Shown here: positions 8,776 through 35,246 of the stretch, in pieces
How the letters are laid out: every line of letters begins with the position of its first letter
Position numbering within the stretch: the first letter of the stretch is position 1
DNA from: a virus
DNA: 35,246 bases
Virus record (IMG/VR): IMGVR_UViG_3300037487_000790
Span: 1 to 35,246 of that record
Strand: one strand, 5' to 3'
Notes under the pieces: generated by a model
Seen by the model: the letters and a program-made list of their open reading frames with translations, nothing else
What the model was told of the DNA's origin: nothing
The model's database searches: none
Position numbers and translations under genes: made by a program

Positions 8776-8853
8776 TGGTTCATGATGGCCCCTACCACTT
8801 CGACCGTCAAGCCACCCATGCGTCAAGCGCATACCGCCCCGCGTTCCTTGCAA

Positions 8854-8881
8854 TGGTCATCCTGCACCGGCGGTGTATGTT
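8854..8881 (+). promoter_or_regulatory. Rightward promoter P1 for the 8929-9650 cassette
   Basis: TGGTCA (8854-8859, four of six matches to TTGACA), a 16-base spacer, then TATGTT (8876-8881). The second rightward promoter at 13790-13817 has the same spacing, the same TATGTT and the same palindrome. The -35 is weak, so this unit may need activation or be intrinsically weaker. Confidence 0.6.
8863..8877. promoter_or_regulatory. Operator O1, TGCACC-GGC-GGTGTA
   Basis: A near-palindrome with half-sites TGCACC and GGTGTA around three bases, located between the -35 and -10 of P1. It shares the layout TRCACC-N3-SGTGTA with 13745-13759 and 13799-13813. Repressor binding here would block RNA polymerase. 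The helix-turn-helix protein at 13525-13728 is the obvious candidate ligand. Confidence 0.65.
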
Positions 8882-8928
8882 CCTCGCATCGCAACCGGCG
8901 CCGAGGCGCCAAACGACGGAGACGGCAA

Positions 8929-9144
8929 ATGAACGCAGAGACCCGCCTTAAGAACATCGAAGAGCGCATCACCCGCGCGGTGTGCAGCGTTCATGGCGTC
9001 ATCTGCAACGGCGAGGTCGAACTGCGAGACAAACTGCGCCGCCAGCTGGGCAAGAAGTGGGACGCCGTCAATTTCCGTTGGGAACTTCTTTCGCAGCAAG
9101 ACATCGAAGACATGGAATACGAAGCGTCCTGGGCTAGCGCCTGA
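8929..9144 (+). CDS. Hypothetical 71-residue protein, first gene of P1 cassette
   Basis: The product is 71 residues, helical and charged (RLKNIEERI, ELRDKLRRQLGKKWDAVNF), with an acidic Glu/Asp/Met segment at the end. GGAG lies seven bases before ATG 8929. It is the first gene behind promoter P1 and is transcribed opposite to the terminase genes beside it. No family recognised. Confidence 0.6.
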   Translation: MNAETRLKNIEERITRAVCSVHGVICNGEVELRDKLRRQLGKKWDAVNFRWELLSQQDIEDMEYEASWASA

Positions 9145-9155
9145 CGCATATCGGA

Positions 9156-9178
9156 GTTGAGGAAACGCACTCCTCAAC
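9156..9178 (+). other. Intergenic hairpin GTTGAGGA-N7-TCCTCAAC
   Basis: A perfect 8-bp inverted repeat with a 7-base loop lies between the first and second genes of the cassette. No T-run follows, so it is not a classical terminator. It could set relative expression or mRNA stability. Confidence 0.5.
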
Positions 9179-9231
9179 CCCGCTACCTTCCCGCAGTATC
9201 CCGACATCGCAACCAACCCACGGAGACAACG

Positions 9232-9450
9232 ATGATCTACGTCCTGACCAACACCACGAACCCAACTGGGTACTTCCGCACCATCAACCCGAGCCAAGCG
9301 GTGTCCGTCGCGCGCCGCTGGAATCAGCTCGGTCGCCTGCACGCAATTGAGGTCATGGTCGGTGGCGGCGATCACCCGCTCCGCACTATCCGCATCCCGC
9401 TCGGCAAGCAGCAGGCAACGGTGGCCGCTATCCGCGCGGCGATGGCCTGA
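9232..9450 (+). CDS. Hypothetical 72-residue protein
   Basis: The product is 72 residues: MIYVLTNTTNPTGYF, a helix with SVARRWNQLGRLHAIEV, and a C-terminal TVAAIRAAMA. The alternating beta/alpha pattern suggests a small folded domain. ATG 9232 has GGAG seven bases upstream. The frame is open back to 9157 but that extension overlaps the hairpin and lacks a ribosome-binding site. No family recognised. Confidence 0.6.
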   Translation: MIYVLTNTTNPTGYFRTINPSQAVSVARRWNQLGRLHAIEVMVGGGDHPLRTIRIPLGKQQATVAAIRAAMA

Positions 9451-9452
9451 CC

Positions 9453-9650
9453 ATGCGCGTCAACCCCGAAATGAGCCTCCCCCGCCTCCGCCACGCCATG
9501 GGCGAAGCCAGCCTCCTCGACGCCGAGCAGCTGCGCGAAGTCCTCCTGCGCCGAGGCGTCGCGGACACCGACCTGATGACCGCCGACGAGTGGGCGGATG
9601 CGGTCAGGACCGCCTACAAGCGCCTGCCGAGGCATCTCCGGCCGGAGTAA
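9453..9650 (+). CDS. Hypothetical 65-residue protein, last gene of P1 cassette
   Basis: The product is 65 residues, helical, Arg/Leu/Glu-rich (LLDAEQLREVLLRRGV, DEWADAVRTAYKRLP). The ATG lies two bases after the previous stop, without its own clear ribosome-binding site, so translation is probably coupled. A strong hairpin follows. No family recognised. Confidence 0.55.
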   Translation: MRVNPEMSLPRLRHAMGEASLLDAEQLREVLLRRGVADTDLMTADEWADAVRTAYKRLPRHLRPE

Positions 9651-9660
9651 GTCTAAATTC

Positions 9661-9696
9661 GCCGGTGACCTAATTCCCCGGGATTACGTCACCGGC
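9661..9696. terminator. Long hairpin between convergent genes, putative bidirectional terminator
   Basis: Outer arms GCCGGTGAC (9661-9669) and GTCACCGGC (9688-9696) pair perfectly. Inside, TAAT pairs with ATTA and CC with GG after one C-C mismatch. It separates the rightward cassette ending at 9650 from the leftward HNH gene, whose stop codon (9689-9691) lies in one arm. There is no long T-run on either side, so efficiency is uncertain. Confidence 0.6.
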
Positions 9697-10084
9697 CTAC
9701 ATCCGACTTTGGTTCCCGCACCGGCGCATGCCTTGCCCACTGGATGCGCTTCTCAATTTTAGCGCGCTGTTCGGCCGTCCGAACTATGATTGCCTGCAAG
9801 GATTTGCTGACCTCCAGCAACTCGTCTACGTCCCAAGTCGGAGAAGCGAGCAGCTTGGCGTGCCTTTTGGGCAACGATTCGGCGATGGCCTTTTTACGCT
9901 CAGTCACCGTTAGCAGCATGCGACTGCCAAGCCACGAATTGCAGTCGTGACACGCCGGAACCGTTTTTCCGGCATCCCGGCCGCCTTTTCTCAAGCGAGA
10001 AGGAAGGCCACCGGCGAAGCTGTAAGGGACCACATGATCTTTCGTTGTGGCTAGGTCTCCGCAGTAGACGCAAACTTTGGTCAT
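9689..10084 (-). CDS. HNH endonuclease
   Basis: The product is 131 residues. A treble-clef/HNH core is visible: C5-x2-C8, D16-H17 (KDHVVP), then C45-x2-C48-N49 (ACHDCNSW). The C-terminal half is helical and charged. Small HNH proteins in phages can be homing nucleases, packaging nucleases or recombination enzymes; here it ends the leftward early operon, 3' to replication genes. AGGAAG lies about nine bases upstream of ATG 10084. It might be a free-standing homing-type gene, but no flanking intron or split gene is seen. Confidence 0.82.
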   Translation of the reverse strand: MTKVCVYCGDLATTKDHVVPYSFAGGLPSRLRKGGRDAGKTVPACHDCNSWLGSRMLLTVTERKKAIAESLPKRHAKLLASPTWDVDELLEVSKSLQAIIVRTAEQRAKIEKRIQWARHAPVREPKSDVGR

Positions 10085-10147
10085 GCCAATTTCTTCCTAG
10101 GATCGCTCACGAACGTCGAAACGTTGCCGGCCGGTATCATGAGACCT

Positions 10148-10738
10148 TCAACGGGCTTCCGCGCTTCCTGCGCCATCCTCGGCGCTCCTAGAGGCATCCG
10201 AGGCGAACCGGGACCGGAACTTCGCCATCGTCGCCTCGAATTCCGCCTTCTGCTCGTCGGTCATCGCTGACCACTTCCCGACCGGCCTCGACCCCTCCGC
10301 CGGCAGCGCGATCGCCCGCCGCAGCTGGTGCCTCTGGGCCTTCGCCGCAGCGACCTCGGCCTCAAGGTGCTCGCAGACCTCGGCGTAGCTCGGGAACCAC
10401 CGAAACTTGCGCGCCGCCGCGTCGAGGCTTGCCCGGCTGAACGCTGACCCCGGATATTCCAGCATCGCCGCGTAGGCCCTGGCCTTGGCATCGCCATCGG
10501 CCTCGCCCGGCTTGGTCGCCGTCAGGGTGCCAAGCGCCGAGATCCAGCGCAGCGCCAGCGCCTGCGGCGCGGGCTGCAGGGCGGCCTCGATCGCGGCGAG
10601 GGCGCGCTCAGCCTCGGCCTTCTGGGTCGAAGAAATCGCCAGCGGGGCTCCCGGCTGCTCGGTCTGCATCCTCCCGAGCAAGGCGCTCAGCGAGAACGAT
10701 AAACCCGTTGCGGGACTGAGATCGAGATCCTGTGCCAT
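10148..10738 (-). CDS. Putative helicase-loader-like replication protein
   Basis: The product is 196 residues. The N-terminal 35 residues are low complexity; the helical core (about 37-150) includes RWISALGTLTA, a Tyr/Pro turn YAAMLEYPGSAF and WFPSYAEVCEHLEAEV, a pattern seen in phage proteins encoded after YdaU/O-type initiators. The C-terminus is charged and Ala/Ser-rich. AAGGA lies nine bases before ATG 10738. The first 131 bases overlap the end of the ydaU-like gene in another frame. The loader role is inferred mostly from position. Confidence 0.5.
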   Translation of the reverse strand: MAQDLDLSPATGLSFSLSALLGRMQTEQPGAPLAISSTQKAEAERALAAIEAALQPAPQALALRWISALGTLTATKPGEADGDAKARAYAAMLEYPGSAFSRASLDAAARKFRWFPSYAEVCEHLEAEVAAAKAQRHQLRRAIALPAEGSRPVGKWSAMTDEQKAEFEATMAKFRSRFASDASRSAEDGAGSAEAR

Positions 10739-11438
10739 TGCCCTGCTTCCTTTCCGATGTCCGGCGCACCCAGTTGCGCCAGGTTGCCGACCAGTTGGTC
10801 TTGCGCCCGTCCGCGCCGGGCTTGCTCGTCCAGTAATCGCGGAACGACGCCGCCTCGCGCTCGACCGCGACGCCGAGGCTCGCCGCGAACCCTCGGTCCT
10901 CCTCCGTCGGTGACCAATCCGCCGGCAGGCGCGTCCCGCGATCGGCGCGCTCTGCGCGCGTCCCCCCAGACCCCCCAGAACTAAGAGGGACTTCTACGGT
11001 ATCTCTTTCCGTAGGAAAGGGTGGTTGTGGTTGTCTCTGTGGTTGTGTCAACGTAACGTTGTTCGTTACGTCCGACGTAACGTTGGTCGTTACGTTGCGC
11101 GCAGCCCTCGCTGCGGTCGCCGCTTCGGTGCGCTTGCGGCGGGCCTCGTACATCGCGGCGGCCTCGGCCAGTTCGTGCTCGATCCGGCCATGGTGCAGCG
11201 CACCATCTTCCTGCCGAAAGAACGCCAGCACGACCCCGGCTGCCTCGGACCACTCGGTCGGCGTCATGCGAGCCGTGCGGGCAAGCGCGCCGTCGTCCAG
11301 CCGCAGAGGCCCGCCCGCGCGCCAGTAGGCCATGATGAGGTGCAGGTATGCGCCGCTCTGCGCGGCTGTCAGGTGCGCCGTGTCCGCGAGGTAGTCCGCG
11401 ACGTACAGCGGCATCCAGGTTGTCGGTCTTCCGGCCAT
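10608..11438 (-). CDS. YdaU/DUF1376-family replication protein
   Basis: The product is 276 residues. Residues 8-105 carry the DUF1376 pattern (WMPLYVADYLADTAHLTA, GAYLHLIMAYWRAGGPL, FFRQEDGALHHGRIEHEL). A Thr/Asn/Val repeat linker follows at about 114-130, then a Gln/Pro stretch. The C-terminal domain (about 185-245) includes FRDYWTSKPG and TNWSATWRNWVRR, typical of YdaU-type and O-like replication proteins. The start ATG 11438 begins the conserved domain; the frame extends to 11561 but the extension looks random and spans two hairpins. The DNA for the linker is a symmetric repeat array that could be the origin. The end overlaps the next gene by 131 bases. Confidence 0.75.
   Translation of the reverse strand: MAGRPTTWMPLYVADYLADTAHLTAAQSGAYLHLIMAYWRAGGPLRLDDGALARTARMTPTEWSEAAGVVLAFFRQEDGALHHGRIEHELAEAAAMYEARRKRTEAATAARAARNVTTNVTSDVTNNVTLTQPQRQPQPPFPTERDTVEVPLSSGGSGGTRAERADRGTRLPADWSPTEEDRGFAASLGVAVEREAASFRDYWTSKPGADGRKTNWSATWRNWVRRTSERKQGNGTGSRSQSRNGFIVLAERLAREDADRAAGSPAGDFFDPEGRG
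10994..11014. repeat. Inverted repeat CTACGG-N9-CCGTAG in ydaU
   Basis: A perfect 6-bp inverted repeat inside the ydaU coding region, just 3' (in gene direction) of the symmetric array at 11051-11095. The bases between them are strongly T/G-skewed on the plus strand. It may belong to a replication origin. Confidence 0.35.
11051..11095. repeat. Iteron-like array inside ydaU, candidate replication origin
   Basis: Two 21-bp units start at 11051 and 11075 (24-bp period) and differ at one base. Each consists of ACGTAACG, five bases, then CGTTACGT, a perfect 8-bp inverted repeat. They encode an Asn/Val/Thr repeat linker. The lambda origin likewise lies inside its initiator gene O as repeated inverted-repeat iterons; that comparison is the basis for the origin proposal. 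Confidence 0.55.
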
Positions 11439-11501
11439 GATCGTCCTTTCACAGGTTGATCCGGCCGACCTCGCGCGATAGGTTCGCGGTGCCATTGTGG
11501 C

Positions 11502-11556
11502 CGGACCAGTTGGGTGGTCCGCTGAGCCCCGGTCTGCTTGCAACAGGCCGGGGCTC
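11502..11556. other. Two adjacent hairpins in the ydaU leader
   Basis: CGGACCA (11502-11508) pairs with TGGTCCG (11515-11521). Next to it, GAGCCCCGG (11524-11532) pairs with CCGGGGCTC (11548-11556), with inner CTG/CAG pairing around a 7-base loop. They lie in the 233-base gap between the coiled-coil gene and ydaU, about 65 bases before the ydaU start on the minus strand. No T-run follows on that strand. A terminator/attenuator, mRNA leader structure or small RNA are all possible. Confidence 0.45.
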
Positions 11557-11630
11557 GTCATTTGTGCCGGGCGTCAGCGCTTCTGGTCAAGCAAGAACGC
11601 GATGTGAGCGGCTTGTGTAGCGTCTGTCGA

Positions 11631-11685
11631 ACGGGCGTTGAACGGACGTTGAGCGGGCGCTAGACCGGTGTTCAACGGGCGTTCA
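11631..11685. repeat. Five tandem 11-bp repeats, iteron-like
   Basis: Units ACGGGCGTTGA, ACGGACGTTGA, GCGGGCGCTAG, ACCGGTGTTCA and ACGGGCGTTCA follow each other without gaps. The period is close to one helical turn, so a protein could line up on one face. The array runs from the gap before ydaU into the last codons of the coiled-coil gene (stop at 11672). Confidence 0.6.
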
Positions 11686-12025
11686 GCTTCTCGTTCTTTC
11701 GCATCAGCGTTTCGTTGCGAAGTCGGAGCTTGTGCATTTCGTACTTGATGCTGCTGATCTCGTCGCGGAGCTTTTCGACGCGCTGGTCGCATCTGAATCT
11801 GTAGTCCCGCCTCATCTCCTCAATGTGCTCGCGGTGAGCGACTTCGCGATCTGCAGACGTGAGTTGATCGATAAGGCCCTGCAGATTTTCGATTTCCTCT
11901 CTTGACGCCTCAAGCGCCGCCTTTAGCACTCGGTTTTCGCGCAGTTGCGCAAACAGCGCTGTATCGGACATCTCCAGCTCTTTCGTGAGCCGAGTGACTG
12001 CGTCGGTCGACTCTTCTTCGCGCAT
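11672..12025 (-). CDS. Coiled-coil hypothetical protein
   Basis: The product is 117 residues, almost wholly a heptad-rich coiled coil with alternating Glu/Lys/Arg and Leu (RENRVLKAALEASREEIENL, VEKLRDEISSIKYEMHKLRL). GGGAG lies eight bases upstream of ATG 12025. An in-frame ATG at 12070 lacks a ribosome-binding site. It is encoded beside the 11-bp repeats. Function unknown. Confidence 0.6.
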   Translation of the reverse strand: MREEESTDAVTRLTKELEMSDTALFAQLRENRVLKAALEASREEIENLQGLIDQLTSADREVAHREHIEEMRRDYRFRCDQRVEKLRDEISSIKYEMHKLRLRNETLMRKNEKLNAR

Positions 12026-12177
12026 GTCGAACTCTCCCGTTTCATTGGTTGGTTGGCGGGTCCGATCCATCAGGTAAACGACCCGGCCAGGGGCCTGTTG
12101 ACGCGTCGCAACTCGCGCTGGATCGGTTTTAGGTTCCGCCGCCCGCCGGCGACGGCAAGGGAGGGCCCGGCCGGTTT

Positions 12178-12432
12178 CTAGAGCGCGAGGCCCAGCTGGA
12201 CCCCGAGCCGATCAGCGTAGAGCGCGACCGCCTGCAGCCGCTCCTGCTCCTTCGCCCGCTTGCGCTCGTCGCGGCGCAGCTGCACCACGCGCACCAGCGC
12301 AGCGGGGTCGTAGCCCGCGGACTTGATCTCGACGCGCAGCTGCTTGATGTCCTCGCGCGCTTCGTCGGCGGCGTCGAGCAGGCGGGTCAGGCGGTCGGCG
12401 TAGCTCGTCAGGTCATCGTTGATGCCGGTCAT
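12178..12432 (-). CDS. GapR-like (DUF2312) DNA-binding protein
   Basis: The product is 84 residues. It follows the DUF2312/GapR plan: an N-terminal coiled-coil helix (LTSYADRLTRLLDAADEARE), then DIKQLRVEIKSAGYDPAAL and VVQLRRDERKRAKEQERL. Caulobacter GapR is about 89 residues and binds overtwisted AT-rich DNA during replication. A role on phage replication or transcription supercoils is inferred. ATGA overlap with the RusA stop. Carriage of this family supports an alphaproteobacterial host. Confidence 0.75.
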   Translation of the reverse strand: MTGINDDLTSYADRLTRLLDAADEAREDIKQLRVEIKSAGYDPAALVRVVQLRRDERKRAKEQERLQAVALYADRLGVQLGLAL

Positions 12433-12794
12433 TCGTCGATCTCCTCTAGGTAGACCTCGGCCCGCGGCGTCGTGCGATCGAGGTGGTGATACAGGTGCAT
12501 TTCTCGCACCGCGCGGTCGTTGCGGTAGACGCGGCCCTGCAACGCGTCGAGGATTAGGCTTGGGTCAAGGTCGGGCCGGCGCGAAGCGTAATGGATGTGC
12601 GCGGTCATACGGATCGGCGCGCGAAGCTGGCGCTCCTCAGGCAACTCTGGAACCTGGCGCGCGAAGTTTTCGACATAGGCCAATGCCTTGGCGCTTTTGA
12701 TAACCCGCACCATACTGCCGAACTTGACGATCCGGCGGCTGTTGGCTTTGGAAACCGGCTCGCCCAGGATGATGCCCTGCCATTTGCGCTTCAC
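12429..12794 (-). CDS. rusA: RusA-like Holliday junction resolvase
   Basis: The product is 121 residues, matching RusA length (about 120). It starts GEPVSKANSRR after a short lead, and carries the acidic motif RRPDLDPSLILDALQGRVYR with Asp75 and Asp77, then Asp93 in NDRAV. These correspond to the three catalytic aspartates of E. coli RusA. The loop after DLD is about two residues shorter than in RusA. GTG 12794 overlaps the preceding stop (GTGA). It should resolve branched recombination or replication intermediates before packaging. Longer in-frame extension upstream lies inside the neighbouring gene and is not used. Confidence 0.85.
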   Translation of the reverse strand: MKRKWQGIILGEPVSKANSRRIVKFGSMVRVIKSAKALAYVENFARQVPELPEERQLRAPIRMTAHIHYASRRPDLDPSLILDALQGRVYRNDRAVREMHLYHHLDRTTPRAEVYLEEIDE

Positions 12795-13528
12795 GTCGAA
12801 GTCCCCACCGCGCTGCGGCTCTCGGCCAGCATGGCACCGCTCGACCCCGTCAGGCTCCGCGCCTCGACGCGCGGCGTCCAGCGCAAAACCTGCAGCGGCC
12901 TGATCAGGTGCGCCGGGATGTCCTCGAAGCGCCGACCGCCCATCAGCCGCGGCCAGAGGCGCTCGGCGCGCTCGACGCTCTGCTCGGGATCGGTGGATGG
13001 CTGCGCTTCGACCGGTTCGGCGTCCTCGAAATCCCGCAGTTGCGGCGGGTATGGCGCGACCTTGCGGCCGAGCGTGAGCGCCTTGTGGCCCGCTGGCGTC
13101 AGCGCGACGCGGTCGTGCGCCCATTCGGCCAAGCCGCGCTTGCGCAGCGAGTGAATAGCGCTGTTGAGCCGGATGCGGTTCTGTATGCCCGCGATCCAAG
13201 CCCGCCACGCCTCGATGCTGGCCTCGCCGCCCTGGCTGTCCATCCACTCGCAGATGACCCGGGTGAACCCCGCCGAAACCGCCGCGCGGTAGCGCGAGCC
13301 GCGCACGGGCCTCGTCGATGTGAACCAGTATGTCCAGCCGCACCCCGGCGGCCTCGTCGGGACGTAATTGCTCTCGACGACGCGCTTGCGCTTGAGGTGC
13401 GCCAGCGACCCGAGGATCGCGCCGCGGTCCATTTGCGGCAGCGCCGCGCACAGATCCGAGGTCGTGGCCCTACCTCCGGCAACGCGCAGGGCGTTGGTGA
13501 CCTGCTCGATCGCGGTGATCCGGTTCAT
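12791..13528 (-). CDS. Tandem winged-helix DNA-binding protein
   Basis: The product is 245 residues. Two similar helical/wing segments are visible: about 3-70 (EQVTNALRVAGGRATTSDLC, then LAHLKRKRVVESNY) and about 80-150 (TRVICEWMDSQGGEASIEAW, HSLRKRGLAEWAHDRVALTP). This is the pattern of two winged helices, each ending with a beta wing. The C-terminal part is charged and Pro-rich. ATG 13528 overlaps the helix-turn-helix gene stop (ATGA). It could be a transcription regulator or replication accessory protein. I do not recognise the family. Confidence 0.6.
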   Translation of the reverse strand: MNRITAIEQVTNALRVAGGRATTSDLCAALPQMDRGAILGSLAHLKRKRVVESNYVPTRPPGCGWTYWFTSTRPVRGSRYRAAVSAGFTRVICEWMDSQGGEASIEAWRAWIAGIQNRIRLNSAIHSLRKRGLAEWAHDRVALTPAGHKALTLGRKVAPYPPQLRDFEDAEPVEAQPSTDPEQSVERAERLWPRLMGGRRFEDIPAHLIRPLQVLRWTPRVEARSLTGSSGAMLAESRSAVGTST

Positions 13529-13728
13529 CGCCGCGCCTCGGGCTGCGTCGCCGCCACCGGATCGAACCGCAGGCGCTTCTTGCGCGCGATCTGCAGCGCC
13601 TGGAGCTGGCGCGCCGCCGGAAGCCGCTGCCGCCGCTTCCAATTGCTGATGGCCTGTGGCGAGGTCGCGAATGCGCGAGCCGCCGCGAGAGTGCCGCCGA
13701 TGGCGGCGAGGAACTGGTCTAGGTTCAT
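13525..13728 (-). CDS. Cro-like helix-turn-helix regulator
   Basis: The product is 67 residues. Residues about 12-33 form a helix-turn-helix of the Cro/YdaS type (TLAAARAFATSPQAISNWKR), followed by a basic tail. It has no dimerisation or cleavage domain of CI size, so it is Cro-like. The promoter region carries an operator (13745-13759) and the ATG has little leader and no good ribosome-binding site, which would fit a nearly leaderless message. It is the best candidate for binding the three matching palindromes; this is inference from position. Confidence 0.75.
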   Translation of the reverse strand: MNLDQFLAAIGGTLAAARAFATSPQAISNWKRRQRLPAARQLQALQIARKKRLRFDPVAATQPEARR

Positions 13729-13739
13729 AATTCGCCACG

Positions 13740-13767
13740 GCTACTACACCCTGCGTGTAGCCGTCAA
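13740..13767 (-). promoter_or_regulatory. Leftward early promoter with operator O2
   Basis: On the minus strand a TTGACG -35 (complement of 13762-13767) precedes the palindrome TACACC-CTG-CGTGTA (13745-13759; extended arms CTACAC/GTGTAG). The best -10, TAGTAG, is only a three-of-six match at 15-base spacing. A start there would give an almost leaderless helix-turn-helix mRNA. Operator placement implies autoregulation. Confidence 0.5.
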
Positions 13768-13789
13768 GCGGACTATTTGCACGAACCTG

Positions 13790-13817
13790 TTGACGGCATG
13801 CACCGCTGGTGTATGTT
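13790..13817 (+). promoter_or_regulatory. Rightward early promoter P2 with operator O3
   Basis: TTGACG (13790-13795), 16-base spacer, TATGTT (13812-13817). The spacer contains TGCACC-GCT-GGTGTA (13799-13813), extended to a 19-bp imperfect palindrome CATGCACC-N3-GGTGTATG. A hairpin GTCGCC-N6-GGCGAC (13824-13841) follows in the leader, then a ribosome-binding site before ATG 13861. It should drive the long rightward recombination operon. Confidence 0.7.
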
Positions 13818-13860
13818 CGCCCTGTCGCCACCGACGGCGACGCAACCGGGGAGACGGAAC

Positions 13861-14613: not shown

Positions 14614-14762
14614 CCAGCGAACGCCGCAAGCTGTTGCGGACCTACCGCAGCATGATCCGCAAGGCGGCTCACGCCCCGCGCGGCAAGAAGCAGTCCCGCA
14701 TGGCCGCGCTGCGCGGCTGGGTCCACCGCCAGCTCAAGAGGGAGACGACCAATGATCGATGA
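14610..14762 (+). CDS. Small basic protein (50 aa)
   Basis: ATG 14610 overlaps the previous stop (ATGA). The 50-residue product is strongly basic (about a third Arg/Lys) with helices RRKLLRTYRSMIRKAAHAPR and RMAALRGWVHRQLKRE. The stop lies 11 bases inside the next gene, whose ribosome-binding site (AGAGGGAGAC) is within this frame. DNA or RNA contact is possible from charge only. Confidence 0.5.
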   Translation: MTSERRKLLRTYRSMIRKAAHAPRGKKQSRMAALRGWVHRQLKRETTNDR

Positions 14763-15621
14763 AGGCATCCACCACGACGTTTCGTTCGACGCCTACCTGT
14801 CCGGCACCGGCATTCCGGCCCCGGCGGTCAGCGGCAGCGACCTCGTGGCCTACGAGACCGAGTGCCCGGCACACGCCTTCGCGTTCTGGCGCGGTAACCC
14901 GGATCGCATCCAGTCGGACAGCACGCCCGCGATGACGCTCGGCACCGCCGCGCACTGCTACATCCTGGAGGGCGCCGACGCCTTCCACGACCGCTACGCG
15001 ATCAAGCCCGAGGGCCTCAACTTCTCGACGCGCGAGGGCCGGGCGTGGCGCGACGCGCAGGAGGGCCGGTCAATCATCAGCTTCGACGCGCACATGCAGA
15101 TCATCTCGATGCGCGACGCGCTCATGGCCCAGCCCGACGCCCGCCGCCTCTTGGAGGCCGGCGGTCGAGCCGAGGTCACGATGGTCGCGAAAGACGAGGA
15201 AACCGGCCTGACGCTGTTGTGCAGGCCCGACCTATACATCGCCCGCGCCGGGCTGGCGGTGAACCTCAAGACCACCGCGAATCCCGCGCCGAACGCATGG
15301 CGGCGCACCTGCGCCAATCTCCGCTACGACCTGGGCGACGCGATGTCCCGCCTCGTCGCCGGGTTGCTCGGCGTCCAGCGACCCTCGCACGCCTTCATGG
15401 TCGTCGGCAGCAACGCCCCGCATCTAGGCTACGTCGCCGCGCTCAGCGCCGACGCCGCCAGCGCCGCCGACCAGCAGCTGCGCCAGATCCTGCGCCGCTT
15501 CGCGAAATCTGTTGCGGACAACGACTGGCCGGGTTACACCGCGGGTGTTCTCGAAATCGGCCTTCCGCAGTGGGCGGCCAACGAGATCGCAGCCAGCATC
15601 CAGAGGGAGTACGTCGCATGA
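14752..15621 (+). CDS. Exonuclease VIII/RecE-like PD-(D/E)XK nuclease
   Basis: The product is 289 residues. It has the RecB/RecE-type early motif LGTAAHCYILEG (63-74), Glu141 in AEVTMVAKDEETG, Asp160 in RPDLY and Lys173 in VNLKTT, followed by the Tyr/Asp segment NLRYDLGD. The acidic residue normally two positions before the lysine is Asn171 here. It is followed by a RecT-type annealase in the usual exonuclease-annealase pair. It should resect 5' strands at phage DNA ends to feed single-strand annealing, provided the Asn tolerates metal binding. Confidence 0.8.
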   Translation: MIDEGIHHDVSFDAYLSGTGIPAPAVSGSDLVAYETECPAHAFAFWRGNPDRIQSDSTPAMTLGTAAHCYILEGADAFHDRYAIKPEGLNFSTREGRAWRDAQEGRSIISFDAHMQIISMRDALMAQPDARRLLEAGGRAEVTMVAKDEETGLTLLCRPDLYIARAGLAVNLKTTANPAPNAWRRTCANLRYDLGDAMSRLVAGLLGVQRPSHAFMVVGSNAPHLGYVAALSADAASAADQQLRQILRRFAKSVADNDWPGYTAGVLEIGLPQWAANEIAASIQREYVA

Positions 15622-16562
15622 CCAACGTGACCAACCTGCCGACCGCCACCGCGCCGCGCGCGGTCTCGGTGGACTTCAACGACCCCGTCGCCGTCTATCT
15701 CGACAGCGACATCTTCGGCCAGCTGCAGCGTGTCGCGAAGCTGATGTCGTCGGCCTCGCTAGTCCCCGCGCACCTGCGCGGCGAGGGCAAGTTGGGCGAC
15801 TGCTTCCTCGTCGCCGCCCAGGCGTTCCGGTGGCGGATGGACCCGTTCGCGGTTGCGCAGCACACCTACGTCTTGTCGGGCAAGCTCGGCTACGAGGGCA
15901 AGCTGATCGCCGCGATCGTGAACGCCTCGGGCAAGCTGCAGGGCAGCCTCGACTACCGCTATAGCGGCGCGGGCGACCAGCGCAGCGTGACGGTGTCGGG
16001 CAAGCTCGTCGGTGACGCCGAGCCGCGCGAGGTCATCGGCACCGTCGCGGGCTGGAAGACCAGCAACGAGCAATGGAAGAAGAACACCGATCAGATGCTG
16101 GCGTACCGCGGCGCGCGCGAGTGGGCGCGCAGGTACATGCCCGAGGCGATCCTCGGCATCCACGCCGACGACGACCTCGCCGGCAGCGCGCCGACCAGCG
16201 TCACCATGCGCGACATCACCCCGCCCCCCGCCCAGTCGCCGCTCGCCGCGGTGACGCAGGCGATGGACGCCCTCCTCGATGCCACCGAACAAGAGGCCGA
16301 CAACACCGCGCCTGCCGCGTCGGATGCAGACTCCCCGGCTGCAGCGTCCTCGGACGCCCCGACAGGCGCACTCCCGCAGGAGCTGGCCGAGCGCGCTCGC
16401 GCCATCGTCGCGGCGATCCGCAAGGCCCAGACGGCCAAGGACATCGACCGCGTGCTGCTCGCGCAGCGCGGCAACCTGGACGACATCAGCGCCGCGTCGC
16501 CAGACGCGCACGAGCGCATCATGGAGGAGAGCCGCCGCCGGGTGGCCGAGGTGGCAGGGTGA
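15618..16562 (+). CDS. recT: RecT-family single-strand annealing protein
   Basis: The product is 314 residues. The core (about 25-195) has the RecT pattern: FGQLQRVAKLMSSASLVPAH, FLVAAQAFRWRMDPFAVAQH, LGYEGKLIAAIVNASGKL, GTVAGWKTSNEQWKKNTDQM and a Tyr/Arg motif YRGAREWARRYMPEAILGI. A long Ala/Pro/Asp linker (about 200-260) leads to a C-terminal helix pair. ATG 15618 overlaps the exonuclease stop (ATGA), with GAGGGAG upstream. It pairs complementary single strands for recombination, probably helped by RusA. The C-terminal extension is variable in the family. Confidence 0.85.
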   Translation: MTNVTNLPTATAPRAVSVDFNDPVAVYLDSDIFGQLQRVAKLMSSASLVPAHLRGEGKLGDCFLVAAQAFRWRMDPFAVAQHTYVLSGKLGYEGKLIAAIVNASGKLQGSLDYRYSGAGDQRSVTVSGKLVGDAEPREVIGTVAGWKTSNEQWKKNTDQMLAYRGAREWARRYMPEAILGIHADDDLAGSAPTSVTMRDITPPPAQSPLAAVTQAMDALLDATEQEADNTAPAASDADSPAAASSDAPTGALPQELAERARAIVAAIRKAQTAKDIDRVLLAQRGNLDDISAASPDAHERIMEESRRRVAEVAG

Positions 16563-18069: not shown

Positions 18070-18623
18070 GGACGACACTCAACAAGATCCGCGCGCACAG
18101 CCCCTGCCGAGACGGCTGGGAGAAACTGTTGCGGCACCTGGGGAAAAGCGCAGCCGACGACGAGCCGCTGTTGATCGAGACGATCCTTAATTCAAACGGT
18201 CTCGATGATGCGCTCTGGTGTCTGCGCGCCGTCGAGAACCAAGACCGAGATCTGCGGCTCTACGCCGTCTGGTGCGCGCGTCGGGTCCAGCATTTGATGC
18301 CCAATCCTGCCAGCGTCTCTGCGCTCGATGTCGCAGAGCGGTATGCGCGCGGACGCGCCACCTACGAGGAGCTAGGGGCTGCGCGGGAGGCGGCGTCGGC
18401 GGCGGCATGGGCGGCATGGGCGGCGTCGGCGGCGTCGGCGGCGGCATGGGCGGCATGGGCGGCGTCGGCGGCGGAGGCGGCGGAGGCGGCGTGGGCGTCG
18501 GCGGAGGCGGCGCGGGCGGCGGCGAGGAAAAAAGAGAAAGCCGCGCAAGCGAAAGAATTAGGCCGCATCTGCCGAGAGATCGAGGCGGGCAGAGACCCGT
18601 ATCCGGAGGAGGACGGACAATGA
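18066..18623 (+). CDS. Ala/Trp-rich repeat protein, Imm5-like region
   Basis: The product is 185 residues. The N-terminal domain (about 1-95) has SPCRDGWEKLLRHLGKS, GLDDALWCLRAVENQDRDLR and YAVWCARRVQHLM, then ALDVAERYARGRAT. This resembles a widespread phage and bacterial family ending in Ala-rich helices, sometimes labelled putative immunity protein (Imm5-like). Residues about 100-160 are a low-complexity Ala/Trp/Ser/Glu helix with a 13-residue repeat; the tail is Lys-rich. ATG 18066 is preceded by GGGAGGACGG. Function unverified; it could bind a partner through the repetitive helix. Confidence 0.65.
   Translation: MRTTLNKIRAHSPCRDGWEKLLRHLGKSAADDEPLLIETILNSNGLDDALWCLRAVENQDRDLRLYAVWCARRVQHLMPNPASVSALDVAERYARGRATYEELGAAREAASAAAWAAWAASAASAAAWAAWAASAAEAAEAAWASAEAARAAARKKEKAAQAKELGRICREIEAGRDPYPEEDGQ
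18394..18471 (+). repeat. Two 39-bp direct repeats in the Ala/Trp-rich gene
   Basis: A 39-bp unit beginning CGTCGGCGGCGGCATGGGCG occurs at 18394 and again at 18433, encoding a 13-residue Ser/Ala/Trp period. The plus strand has many GGG/GGCGG runs and could form a G-quadruplex. Copy number probably varies by slippage in steps of 13 codons. Confidence 0.75.
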
Positions 18624-33875: not shown

Positions 33876-34877
33876 TTAGGCGATCAGCACGCCGCTGAAC
33901 TGCGGCCCGCTGCTGGTGAGGTTGCCGGCCCAGCCGATCAGCTTGACGATGGCGTCCTGGTTGACCGCCTGACGCTCGCCCCCGATCGGCACGAAGTTCC
34001 GGTCGGCATGCGGGCGGAAGTGCAGGTACTTGGTGTTGAGGAACCACATGTGGTTCGCCGTCGCCGCCGCGCCGATGCCGCCGTCGAGGACGACATCGGA
34101 GGCCATGCCCGCGCCGTAGTACTTGAGCGACGCGAAGCCCGCGCCAGCCATGCTCGAACCGCTGTCCGAGATGCGCTGGATCGACTGCAGGGACTGCAGA
34201 TAGAGCCGGTAGTAGTTGTTGTCCGCGACGATCAGGTCGGGCTTGTCGGTGCCACGGATCAGCTGCACGGCGACCGAATCCATGTACTGCTGGATGTTGG
34301 ACGCCGTCGTGGCCGAGCCGCCGTTTGTCACGCCCGAGAAGGCGACCGAGCGCCAGAACGACCACGACACGCGGCTGATGCCGCCATACGTGCCGGTCGC
34401 CGGGCTGTCGGGCACCGCGGCCGCGAGGCCGGTGATGTTCTTGCCCGAGTTGCCGGTGCCATCGAGGTAGATGTCGCCGCCGATGCGGTTGGCGAGCTGC
34501 GCCTCCGCAACGGCCATGCGGCCATCCAGCAGGTCGATGATCGCCTCCTTGCCCGAGTTCTGGATCATCTCCAGGCCCGAGATCGAGACTGCCGAGGCGT
34601 ACTGCGTGATCGAGAACTGCGCCGCGGAGATCGGCGAGTTCTGCGAGACGTTGAGCACCTCGTAGCCCGAGTAGGAGTTCGTGTTGTTCGTCGAGGTGTC
34701 GTTGTACATGATCTCCTGGAGGATCACGTTACCACCCGAGAACGTCTTCACGTTGCCGCGCTCCTTGAGGCGACGCAGCAGCGCGTTGTTGTTCGTCACG
34801 TTGTCGGCGAGCTCGCCGGAACGCGACTGGATGTTCGTCGCGATGATATCGCTGATCGAACTGTTCGCGAACGCCAT
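33876..34877 (-). CDS. Major capsid protein
   Basis: The product is 333 residues and should have the HK97 fold. It starts with the family-typical helical N-terminus (ISDIIATNIQSRSGELADNV) and has FSITQYASAVSISGLEMIQN, SISGLEM-like conserved blocks, then KPDLIVADNNYYRLYLQSLQ and the C-terminal PIGGERQAVNQDAIVKLIGW. These match small capsid proteins of marine and proteobacterial podophages and are shorter than P22 coat (430 residues). ATG 34877 has AAGGAG eight bases upstream; a GTG at 34886 is too close to that site. It follows the scaffold gene in the circle. Confidence 0.9.
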   Translation of the reverse strand: MAFANSSISDIIATNIQSRSGELADNVTNNNALLRRLKERGNVKTFSGGNVILQEIMYNDTSTNNTNSYSGYEVLNVSQNSPISAAQFSITQYASAVSISGLEMIQNSGKEAIIDLLDGRMAVAEAQLANRIGGDIYLDGTGNSGKNITGLAAAVPDSPATGTYGGISRVSWSFWRSVAFSGVTNGGSATTASNIQQYMDSVAVQLIRGTDKPDLIVADNNYYRLYLQSLQSIQRISDSGSSMAGAGFASLKYYGAGMASDVVLDGGIGAAATANHMWFLNTKYLHFRPHADRNFVPIGGERQAVNQDAIVKLIGWAGNLTSSGPQFSGVLIA

Positions 34878-35246
34878 GAATGGCACTCCTTACAGAGGGT
34901 TGGGGTCAGAGCCGGTCGGACATCCCGTCGAATTGCTCGGCGAGAAGGGACCGGCGGTCGGCTGCCTTGGCGGCGGAGGGCGCCCCGGGTGTGGAGGACC
35001 GAACCGATACCGCGGCTGCCCTGGCGGCTTTCGCCGCCTTGTCTGCGGATGCCTTGCGCTGCGCTGCGGCTGCGGCCTGTTGGGCCTGCTGCGATGCCGC
35101 GAACAGCTCGGGATCGAGACGAAGGGCCTTGTCGTATGCGTCTTGGAGCGTGGTCGCGACGCCGCTCTGTAGGAGCTGGATCATCGTCGGACGCGCGTCC
35201 TCGAAATGCTCGGCCTTCGCGGAGAACTGGTGCACCTCGTCTAGGA
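34806..35246. repeat. Right copy of divergent terminal redundancy
   Basis: Partner of 1-441, offset 34805, no gaps, 14 substitutions. Differences concentrate toward the outer edge of this copy. Joining the copies gives a circular unit of about 34,805 bp. Confidence 0.9.
34906..35246 (-). CDS. Scaffolding protein, C-terminal fragment (second haplotype of 101-1132)
   Basis: The frame runs off the right edge and ends at the same stop as the scaffold gene at 101. Over the shared 113 or so codons four residues differ: Gln/His, Ala/Asp, Glu/Gln and Pro/Ser. The remaining substitutions are silent, including a double change that keeps Arg (AGG to CGT). In the circular genome this is the same gene and not a duplicate. 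Confidence 0.85.
   Translation of the reverse strand, partial: LDEVHQFSAKAEHFEDARPTMIQLLQSGVATTLQDAYDKALRLDPELFAASQQAQQAAAAAQRKASADKAAKAARAAAVSVRSSTPGAPSAAKAADRRSLLAEQFDGMSDRL

Follow-up and report, generated by a model that had tools for sequence, protein, structure and literature searches.

Does one small helix-turn-helix (HTH) protein govern several transcription units of a phage through a shared palindrome, and does it do so as part of a lambda-type immunity switch? The question is raised by virus record IMGVR_UViG_3300037487_000790, whose 35,246 bases were analysed in full and are referred to here as the window. A first-pass annotation had placed one palindromic operator at three promoters, those of a three-gene cassette, of the gene for a 67-residue HTH protein (P0001) and of a recombination operon. 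We consider it likely, with a probability of roughly 0.7, that P0001 is an orphan Cro without CI that acts at its own operon, the recombination operon, the exchangeable cassette and a site inside an exonuclease gene.

The palindrome at the three promoters

All three annotated 15-mers were found in place (Table 1), and the window holds three exact matches to their pattern TRCACCN3SGTGTA, whereas 300 dinucleotide shuffles gave 0.003 on average and never more than 1. This pattern was drawn from the sites themselves, and conservation is therefore a better test than shuffling. With up to two mismatches there are eight matches over both strands, representing four places, a number reached by 10 of 100 shuffles and not significant; these, the only such matches in the window, are the sites at the leftward promoter (PL) of the HTH gene, at the rightward promoter (PR) of the recombination operon, at the cassette promoter and within the exonuclease gene.

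A search with the HTH protein returned 52 viral loci: the window's own subclade (L004-L018, 88-99% identity across the whole protein), L019 (91%), a larger group (76-78%), the outlier L055 (66%) and a cut-off fragment, L020. The last, which has no upstream sequence, was omitted from the PL counts, and L022, whose PR is cut off, from the PR counts. The predicted operator core, TACAC-N5-GTGTA, lies upstream of the HTH gene in all 51 readable loci, exactly in 43 and with one mismatch in eight (a TAAAC left half in five, a GTGAA right half in three). As in the Cro family, the gene's own promoter thus has a putative operator in every one of these loci, and the first-pass expectation that the motif would precede the equivalent gene in relatives was confirmed at this gene. 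The five central bases take eight different forms among the 51 loci, and fixed halves around a variable centre are the pattern that an operator made of two half-sites should leave. Very little space separates the leftward promoter from the start codon of cro (13729-13745), and the cro transcript may thus be nearly leaderless.

At PR the site is flanked by TTGACG (13790-13795) and TATGTT (13812-13817), overlapping the latter by 2 bp, and this is the only one of the three promoters to pass a consensus scan. The annotated placement of every site between -35 and -10 boxes therefore stands at PR, but the cassette promoter has a weak -35 and PL, with a good -35 (TTGACG), has no good -10; similarly, the two rightward promoters do share a 16-base spacer and an identical TATGTT (8876-8881 at the cassette), but the cassette -35 reads only TGGTCA. 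The centres of the PL and PR sites are 54 bp apart in 15 loci and 55 bp apart in 35, about five helical turns. Among the 50 readable PR loci the left half is TGCAC in 15, TAAAG in 25, GTCAC in nine and TACAC in one, the last being the outlier L055, whose PR carries a perfect palindrome. The right half, GTGTA, stands beside the -10 box in all 50, having been part of the search criterion. For the cassette, 21 distinct contexts were collected with the pattern TTGCAATG...GTGTATGTT; their left halves are TGCAC in 13, GAAAC in seven and TTCAC in one.

Several of these results speak against an operator shared by all three promoters. Outside the subclade, 34 of the 35 readable PR sites have TAAAG or GTCAC as their left half, TGCAC is absent from 8 of the 21 cassette sites, and the -10 box of the leftward promoter is poor; the sequences compared are related, so that their counts are not independent events; and the conserved right half of the PR and cassette sites overlaps the -10 box, which means that promoter function alone could preserve it. 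One operator at three promoters is, in its full form, found in the window's subclade only, and elsewhere the left half has changed at most of the equivalent PR sites and in the cassettes just counted. An unlikely alternative, yet the one that survives best, is that only the leftward and intragenic sites are true operators and that the rightward promoters are copies of one promoter-leader segment, in which GGTGTATGTT serves as a promoter element. The two rightward promoters have a 45-nucleotide stretch in common (76% identity) that runs past the operator, which fits such copying, as do the altered left halves outside the subclade and in the cassettes; against it stand the TGCAC left half kept at PR in 15 of 15 subclade loci and in 13 of 21 cassette contexts, and the perfect palindrome at PR of the outlying L055.

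The site was also considered as a general promoter element, and this was rejected. A scan of viral contigs for TGCACCN3GGTGTATGTT gave 40 stretches; those outside the phage group were taken as chance occurrences because their context was unrelated and they had no HTH-profile match.

At the cassette, a single predicted operator-promoter precedes exchangeable small genes. The first gene behind it falls into seven groups in the 21 contexts, unlinked by blastp at E 1e-4, although two of the groups (L069 and L036) have similar C-terminal ends and some groups are possibly distantly related. Pfam matched none of nine cassette proteins, and the one weak PHROG match (E 0.013) is to a family of uncharacterised function. 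The cassette (8929-9650) is possibly an accessory or anti-defence locus. A second palindrome, ATGCG-N5-CGCAT (8818-8832), overlaps a leftward TTGACG and is present in 21 of 21 cassette-promoter contexts; it is possibly the site of another regulator. Between cassette genes 1 and 2 lies an inverted repeat, GTTGAGGA-N7-TCCTCAAC (9156-9178).

The 5' leader of the rightward operon (13818-13860) has features of its own. A GC-rich inverted repeat (GTCGCC...GGCGAC) is visible by eye in the window, and when the leaders of 15 relatives, all outside the subclade, were folded, a hairpin of 4 to 8 pairs appeared at the same place in 13 of the 15 minimum-energy folds, with stem bases that vary among the 13.

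A fourth site within the exonuclease gene

The first-pass annotation did not include the intragenic site (15535-15549), which departs from the pattern by one mismatch and lies 68 bases 5' of the recT start codon. Each of the six relatives examined has a similar site at a distance of 1.5 to 1.9 kb from PR, and all 29 distinct clade orthologues of the exonuclease carry TACACC-NNN-[G/A]GTGT[T/A], in frame as Tyr-Thr-x-Gly-Val. These counts omit L093 (26% identity, a contig of a metagenome-assembled genome, without the site), and the partial orthologue L014 is among the 29 for the site codons and outside the 28 used for the codon-column and pair analyses. The codons are TAC ACC NNN GGT followed by GTT or GTA; once, AGT replaces GGT, with Gly changed to Ser and GTGTA kept. 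In these genes the usual choices are GGC for Gly and GTC or GTG for Val: GGT accounts for 14% of the Gly codons, GTT and GTA together for 16% of the Val codons. GTC and GTG, the other 84%, occur at the site Val in no clade member. At least three changes between GTT and GTA are counted on the tree.

This codon usage stands out within the gene as a whole. Among the 190 conserved columns that leave a synonymous choice open, A/T-ending codons make up at least 95% in four: the adjacent Gly and Val of the site and, 11 to 14 codons before them, one Lys and one Val. No other pair of neighbouring codons in the exonuclease alignment scores as high for uncommon codons as this Gly-Val pair, the next separate peaks being the 3' end, which holds the recT ribosome-binding site, and the upstream Val codon. 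Codon choice across the clade shows that the putative operator is constrained at the DNA level. The upstream Val codon, GTT, supplies the TTG of TTGCGG, a possible but weak -35 box placed 17 bp before the site; it is fixed in 28 of 28 clade orthologues and is ATC in both outgroups. An internal promoter, TTGCGG-17-TACACC, is conceivable, though weak. We found no report of an intragenic operator of a phage repressor in the open-licence text of PubMed Central.

Table 1. Predicted regulatory sites and genes of the window discussed in the text
Feature	Position	Strand	Basis
Predicted operator at cassette promoter, TGCAC-N5-GTGTA	8863..8877	+	left half in 21 distinct contexts
Cassette promoter, TGGTCA-16-TATGTT	8854..8881	+	sequence
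Cassette gene 1, 71 amino acids	8929..9144	+	no family match; replaced by other genes in relatives
Cassette gene 2, 72 amino acids	9232..9450	+	no family match
Cassette gene 3, 65 amino acids	9453..9650	+	no family match
Primosomal/replication protein (DUF1376)	10608..11438	-	family match; further downstream of cro, leftward strand
RusA-like endodeoxyribonuclease	12429..12803	-	family match; downstream of cro, leftward strand
Cro-family HTH repressor (predicted), P0001, 67 amino acids	13525..13728	-	Pfam, PHROG, PDB profile, AlphaFold2/Foldseek
Predicted operator at leftward (autoregulatory) promoter PL, perfect TACAC-N5-GTGTA	13745..13759	-	present in 51/51 readable relatives' loci
-35 box TTGACG of leftward promoter (read 13767 to 13762)	13762..13767	-	sequence; no recognisable -10
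Rightward promoter PR, TTGACG-16-TATGTT	13790..13817	+	consensus scan
Predicted operator at PR, TGCAC-N5-GTGTA	13799..13813	+	TGCAC left half in 15/15 subclade loci
First gene of rightward (recombination) operon, 105 amino acids	13861..14178	+	no family match
Exonuclease VIII-like gene (DUF3799, PD-(D/E)XK)	14752..15621	+	family matches
TTGCGG, possible -35 of internal recT promoter (weak)	15512..15517	+	17 bp before intragenic site
Fourth predicted operator, intragenic, TACACC-GCG-GGTGTT (codons Y T A G V)	15535..15549	+	conservation, codon choice
RecT-like annealing protein gene	15618..16562	+	family matches (scanned from 15621); start codon read from sequence

The HTH protein, the palindrome and the lysogeny question

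P0001 resembles Cro both in sequence and in predicted fold. The PDB profile search matched Xfaso 1 Cro (3bd1, E 0.0016), a weak PHROG match is to a transcriptional regulator/repressor, and the AlphaFold2 model (mean predicted local distance difference test score 85.6) has as its first nine PDB matches in Foldseek Xfaso 1 Cro, the hybrid XPH1, N15 Cro and P22 Cro (E 0.003 to 0.34). With its size in the range of about 60-80 amino acids it is thus a small HTH protein related to known Cro proteins, at modest Foldseek E values. Xfaso 1 Cro, from a Xylella prophage, is the closest solved structure by sequence and fold, and its recognition helix is similar (SAISNWR against QAISNWK), at about 26-30% identity in the structural alignments; no paper on its operator was found in open-licence PubMed Central text. 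The likeness to YdaS of the Rac and CP-933P prophages is slighter: the YdaS_toxin match reaches 23.2 bits, under Pfam's gathering score of 30, and in the Foldseek search with the model the N-terminal domain of YdaS (8co2) ranks low (E 2.8).

Relatives in which the regulator differs bear on whether P0001 and the palindrome belong together. Two exonuclease orthologues, in L280 (65%) and L281 (64%), lack the intragenic site, with TAC GCC GAT GGC GTT and TAC GCC GAT GGC GTC, respectively, in its place. The Cro profile run against the analysed stretches of both gave a best E of 0.2, an HTH-like reading frame in L280, and TACAC-N5-GTGTA is absent from both whole records up to one mismatch. The L280 record holds GGGAC-N4-GTCCC exactly twice, 41 bp apart, in a divergent control region (4226-4280 of L280), an apparent swap of both regulator and operator within the same divergent layout. 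Five sister loci (L243-L247) match the window in part, for example around RusA (L244-L246) and around the endolysin (L243, L244, L245 and L247), with no convincing exonuclease or RecT match in any. All five have a CI-like gene (partial in L246 and L247, at contig ends), in four it adjoins a different Cro-like HTH (E 1e-8 to 3e-7), and the palindrome is absent from all five. From these few cases, operator and HTH protein appear to tend to change together.

More distant comparisons gave a mixed picture. At L122, a Cro-like gene that came up by protein similarity (38% identity) is closely preceded by TACAC-N5-GTGTA, and four others (L131, L144, L173, L175), found through the palindrome search, stand behind the palindrome as well. 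In the reverse direction, a Cro-like gene follows 27 of 48 distinct palindrome sites, 23 of the 27 being orthologues of the window gene. We regard the link between palindrome and non-orthologous Cro genes as suggestive only.

The assignment of the palindrome to a Cro-like P0001 is weakened on several counts. Both Pfam matches, YdaS_toxin (6.2e-5) and P22_Cro (2.9e-4), lie under the gathering score, and no Foldseek match of the model reaches E 0.001. Of the 11 distant HTH loci that protein similarity brought up, L122 alone has the palindrome; several of the 11 are other kinds of HTH protein, and one locus, L120, has CTACAG-N5-CTGTAG instead. Non-orthologous sites are followed by a Cro-like gene in 4 of 25 cases against 1 of 44 for a single control palindrome (p = 0.054), and the control's one match is likewise a Cro-like gene, behind another palindrome. 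In L280, GGGAC-N4-GTCCC has no further copy up to one mismatch and no cassette or intragenic counterpart. The 10 distant HTH loci without the palindrome and the 21 of 25 non-orthologous sites of the same layout without a Cro-like gene would fit a palindrome that is recognised not by the adjacent HTH protein but by a regulator of the host or by some other protein of the phage. We nevertheless judge this improbable: the palindrome is missing in related phages that have another regulator, one of which has a different palindrome in the same layout, and five non-orthologous Cro-like genes have the palindrome directly upstream, even if four of these were found because of it.

Cro is familiar as the partner of CI in the CI/Cro switch, and in the lambda OR region three operator sites per promoter are shared by CI and Cro. 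The first-pass comparison with lambda-type immunity is not supported, because integrase, resolvase and CI domains were sought in the window and not found. Phage_integrase (PF00589) and Resolvase (PF00239) are absent from all seven records searched, the window included (no search was aimed at other recombinases or plasmid-type maintenance), and CI-type domains (HTH_3, Peptidase_S24) are absent from six of the seven, again with the window among them. PL and PR carry one site each, where lambda-type early promoters have several. Lambda-type lysogeny is further disfavoured by a search of 84,980 species genomes, in which the HTH protein had five matches, partial and weak.

A lambda-type circuit of a temperate phage draws what strength it has from two sources. 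In the sister loci a CI-like gene adjoins a Cro-like HTH gene, from which it would follow that the module derives from a CI/Cro switch or is exchanged with one, and contig G006, the one record of the seven with CI-type domains, has a window-type Cro with the palindrome at one end and a CI-like gene (that of L243) at the other. That gene lies within the last 1.9 kb of G006, a stretch without a blastn match to the near relative G005, and the last 1.5 kb has no blastn match to the window; moreover, the first 355 bases of the contig match, at 94%, a stretch ending about 1.9 kb before the other end. The unmatched tail, preceded by a repeat of the contig start, may therefore come from another phage. 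The HTH gene also heads the strand with the replication genes, which a prophage-maintenance repressor would presumably silence together with itself. All this makes a lambda-type circuit very improbable. The CI-like gene (HTH_3 plus S24) at the end of contig IMGVR_UViG_3300042906_001042 (L240, 13404-14911) lies in a tail unmatched in the near relative, and the contig is perhaps joined. Among the matches listed for open-licence PubMed Central text, no title describes a Cro without CI.

Least credible of all is that the intragenic site is a by-product of conservation of the protein (Y-T-x-G-V), whose residues are indeed conserved, in part even in the outgroups (Y-A-D-G-V), because two diagnostic codons run contrary to the gene's own usage in every clade member, the outgroups have GGC with GTT or GTC, and the member with Gly changed to Ser uses AGT, so that GTGTA is retained.

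The phage was also compared with known isolates. Bases 1-25000 gave no megablast match, and the 67-residue protein no tblastn match, in the phages collection of known isolates. The best-ranked named relative by terminase is Rhodoferax phage P26218, at best 44.7% identical, whose annotation contains no gene named repressor or exonuclease and many hypothetical genes; this phage is described as lytic (PMC4657236). A direct terminal repeat of 441 bases (1-441 against 34806-35246, 14 mismatches) marks the genome as circular or terminally redundant, and from these near-identical ends the genome is probably complete, at about 34.8 kb. Elsewhere in the rightward region, 18368-18538 holds GGC-rich repeats with periods of 9 and 12 bases.

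A probable orphan Cro and its proposed circuit

The arrangement of sites suggests how an orphan Cro would act. The early promoters would fire on phage entry, and Cro would build up from the leftward operon; the 67-residue protein, presumably as a dimer, would then bind TACAC-N5-GTGTA, filling first the best-kept site, behind its own -35. As this site follows the -35 of its own leftward promoter, Cro would limit its own synthesis and the replication genes behind it. At a higher level of Cro the recombination operon and the cassette would be limited too, in the subclade through the sites with a TGCAC left half. The intragenic site may be an auxiliary operator that blocks an internal recT promoter, blocks elongation or loops to the promoter region. 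In a lytic infection, the circuit would probably serve to dampen early transcription or turn it off. The annotated notion of a single small repressor for three units fits a Cro-like protein with a palindrome at its own gene in all readable loci and further copies in the subclade, but it was incomplete, since four sites are conserved. A broader reading, tentative and in our estimate somewhat under even odds, is that a Cro without CI governs early expression globally in a clade of lytic phages, that newly acquired cassette genes come under the same control, and that the operator in the exonuclease codons sets the ratio of exonuclease to RecT through an internal recT promoter or an elongation block.

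Known Cro proteins and other phage operators share parts of this design. The Cro proteins of lambda, P22 and N15 (6on0, 2hin and 1rzs are among the Foldseek matches) are alike in their small HTH fold, in a palindrome in the promoter region, in divergent early promoters and in a site before their own gene; here, by contrast, no CI was found, there is one site per promoter instead of three, cro heads the strand with the replication genes, and one site lies within a gene. The Cro of phiKO2 binds a single 16-bp operator, upstream of the prophage repressor gene only, and is suggested not to repress itself (PMC4997575), whereas four sites are predicted here, with the best one before cro. The stoperators of Cluster A mycobacteriophages are repressor sites described in PMC9283540 as asymmetric 13-mers bound by a monomer, with over twenty copies in each genome, placed in short intergenic spaces; they are alike in lying outside promoters in the path of the elongating polymerase, but the intragenic site here is a palindrome, present in one copy within coding sequence, and lacks their asymmetry and their orientation with transcription.

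If this reading is true, a Cro-only clade beside relatives with both CI and Cro would show what Cro does alone, and the apparent swap in L280 would show control modules being exchanged between phages. An operator written in the codon choice of a coding sequence would be a plain instance of overlapping codes, and a search for neighbouring uncommon codons that are fixed among relatives would offer a way to find further hidden operators. The cassette, with its differing small genes behind a conserved putative operator-promoter, may be a good hunting ground for early host-takeover or anti-defence genes.

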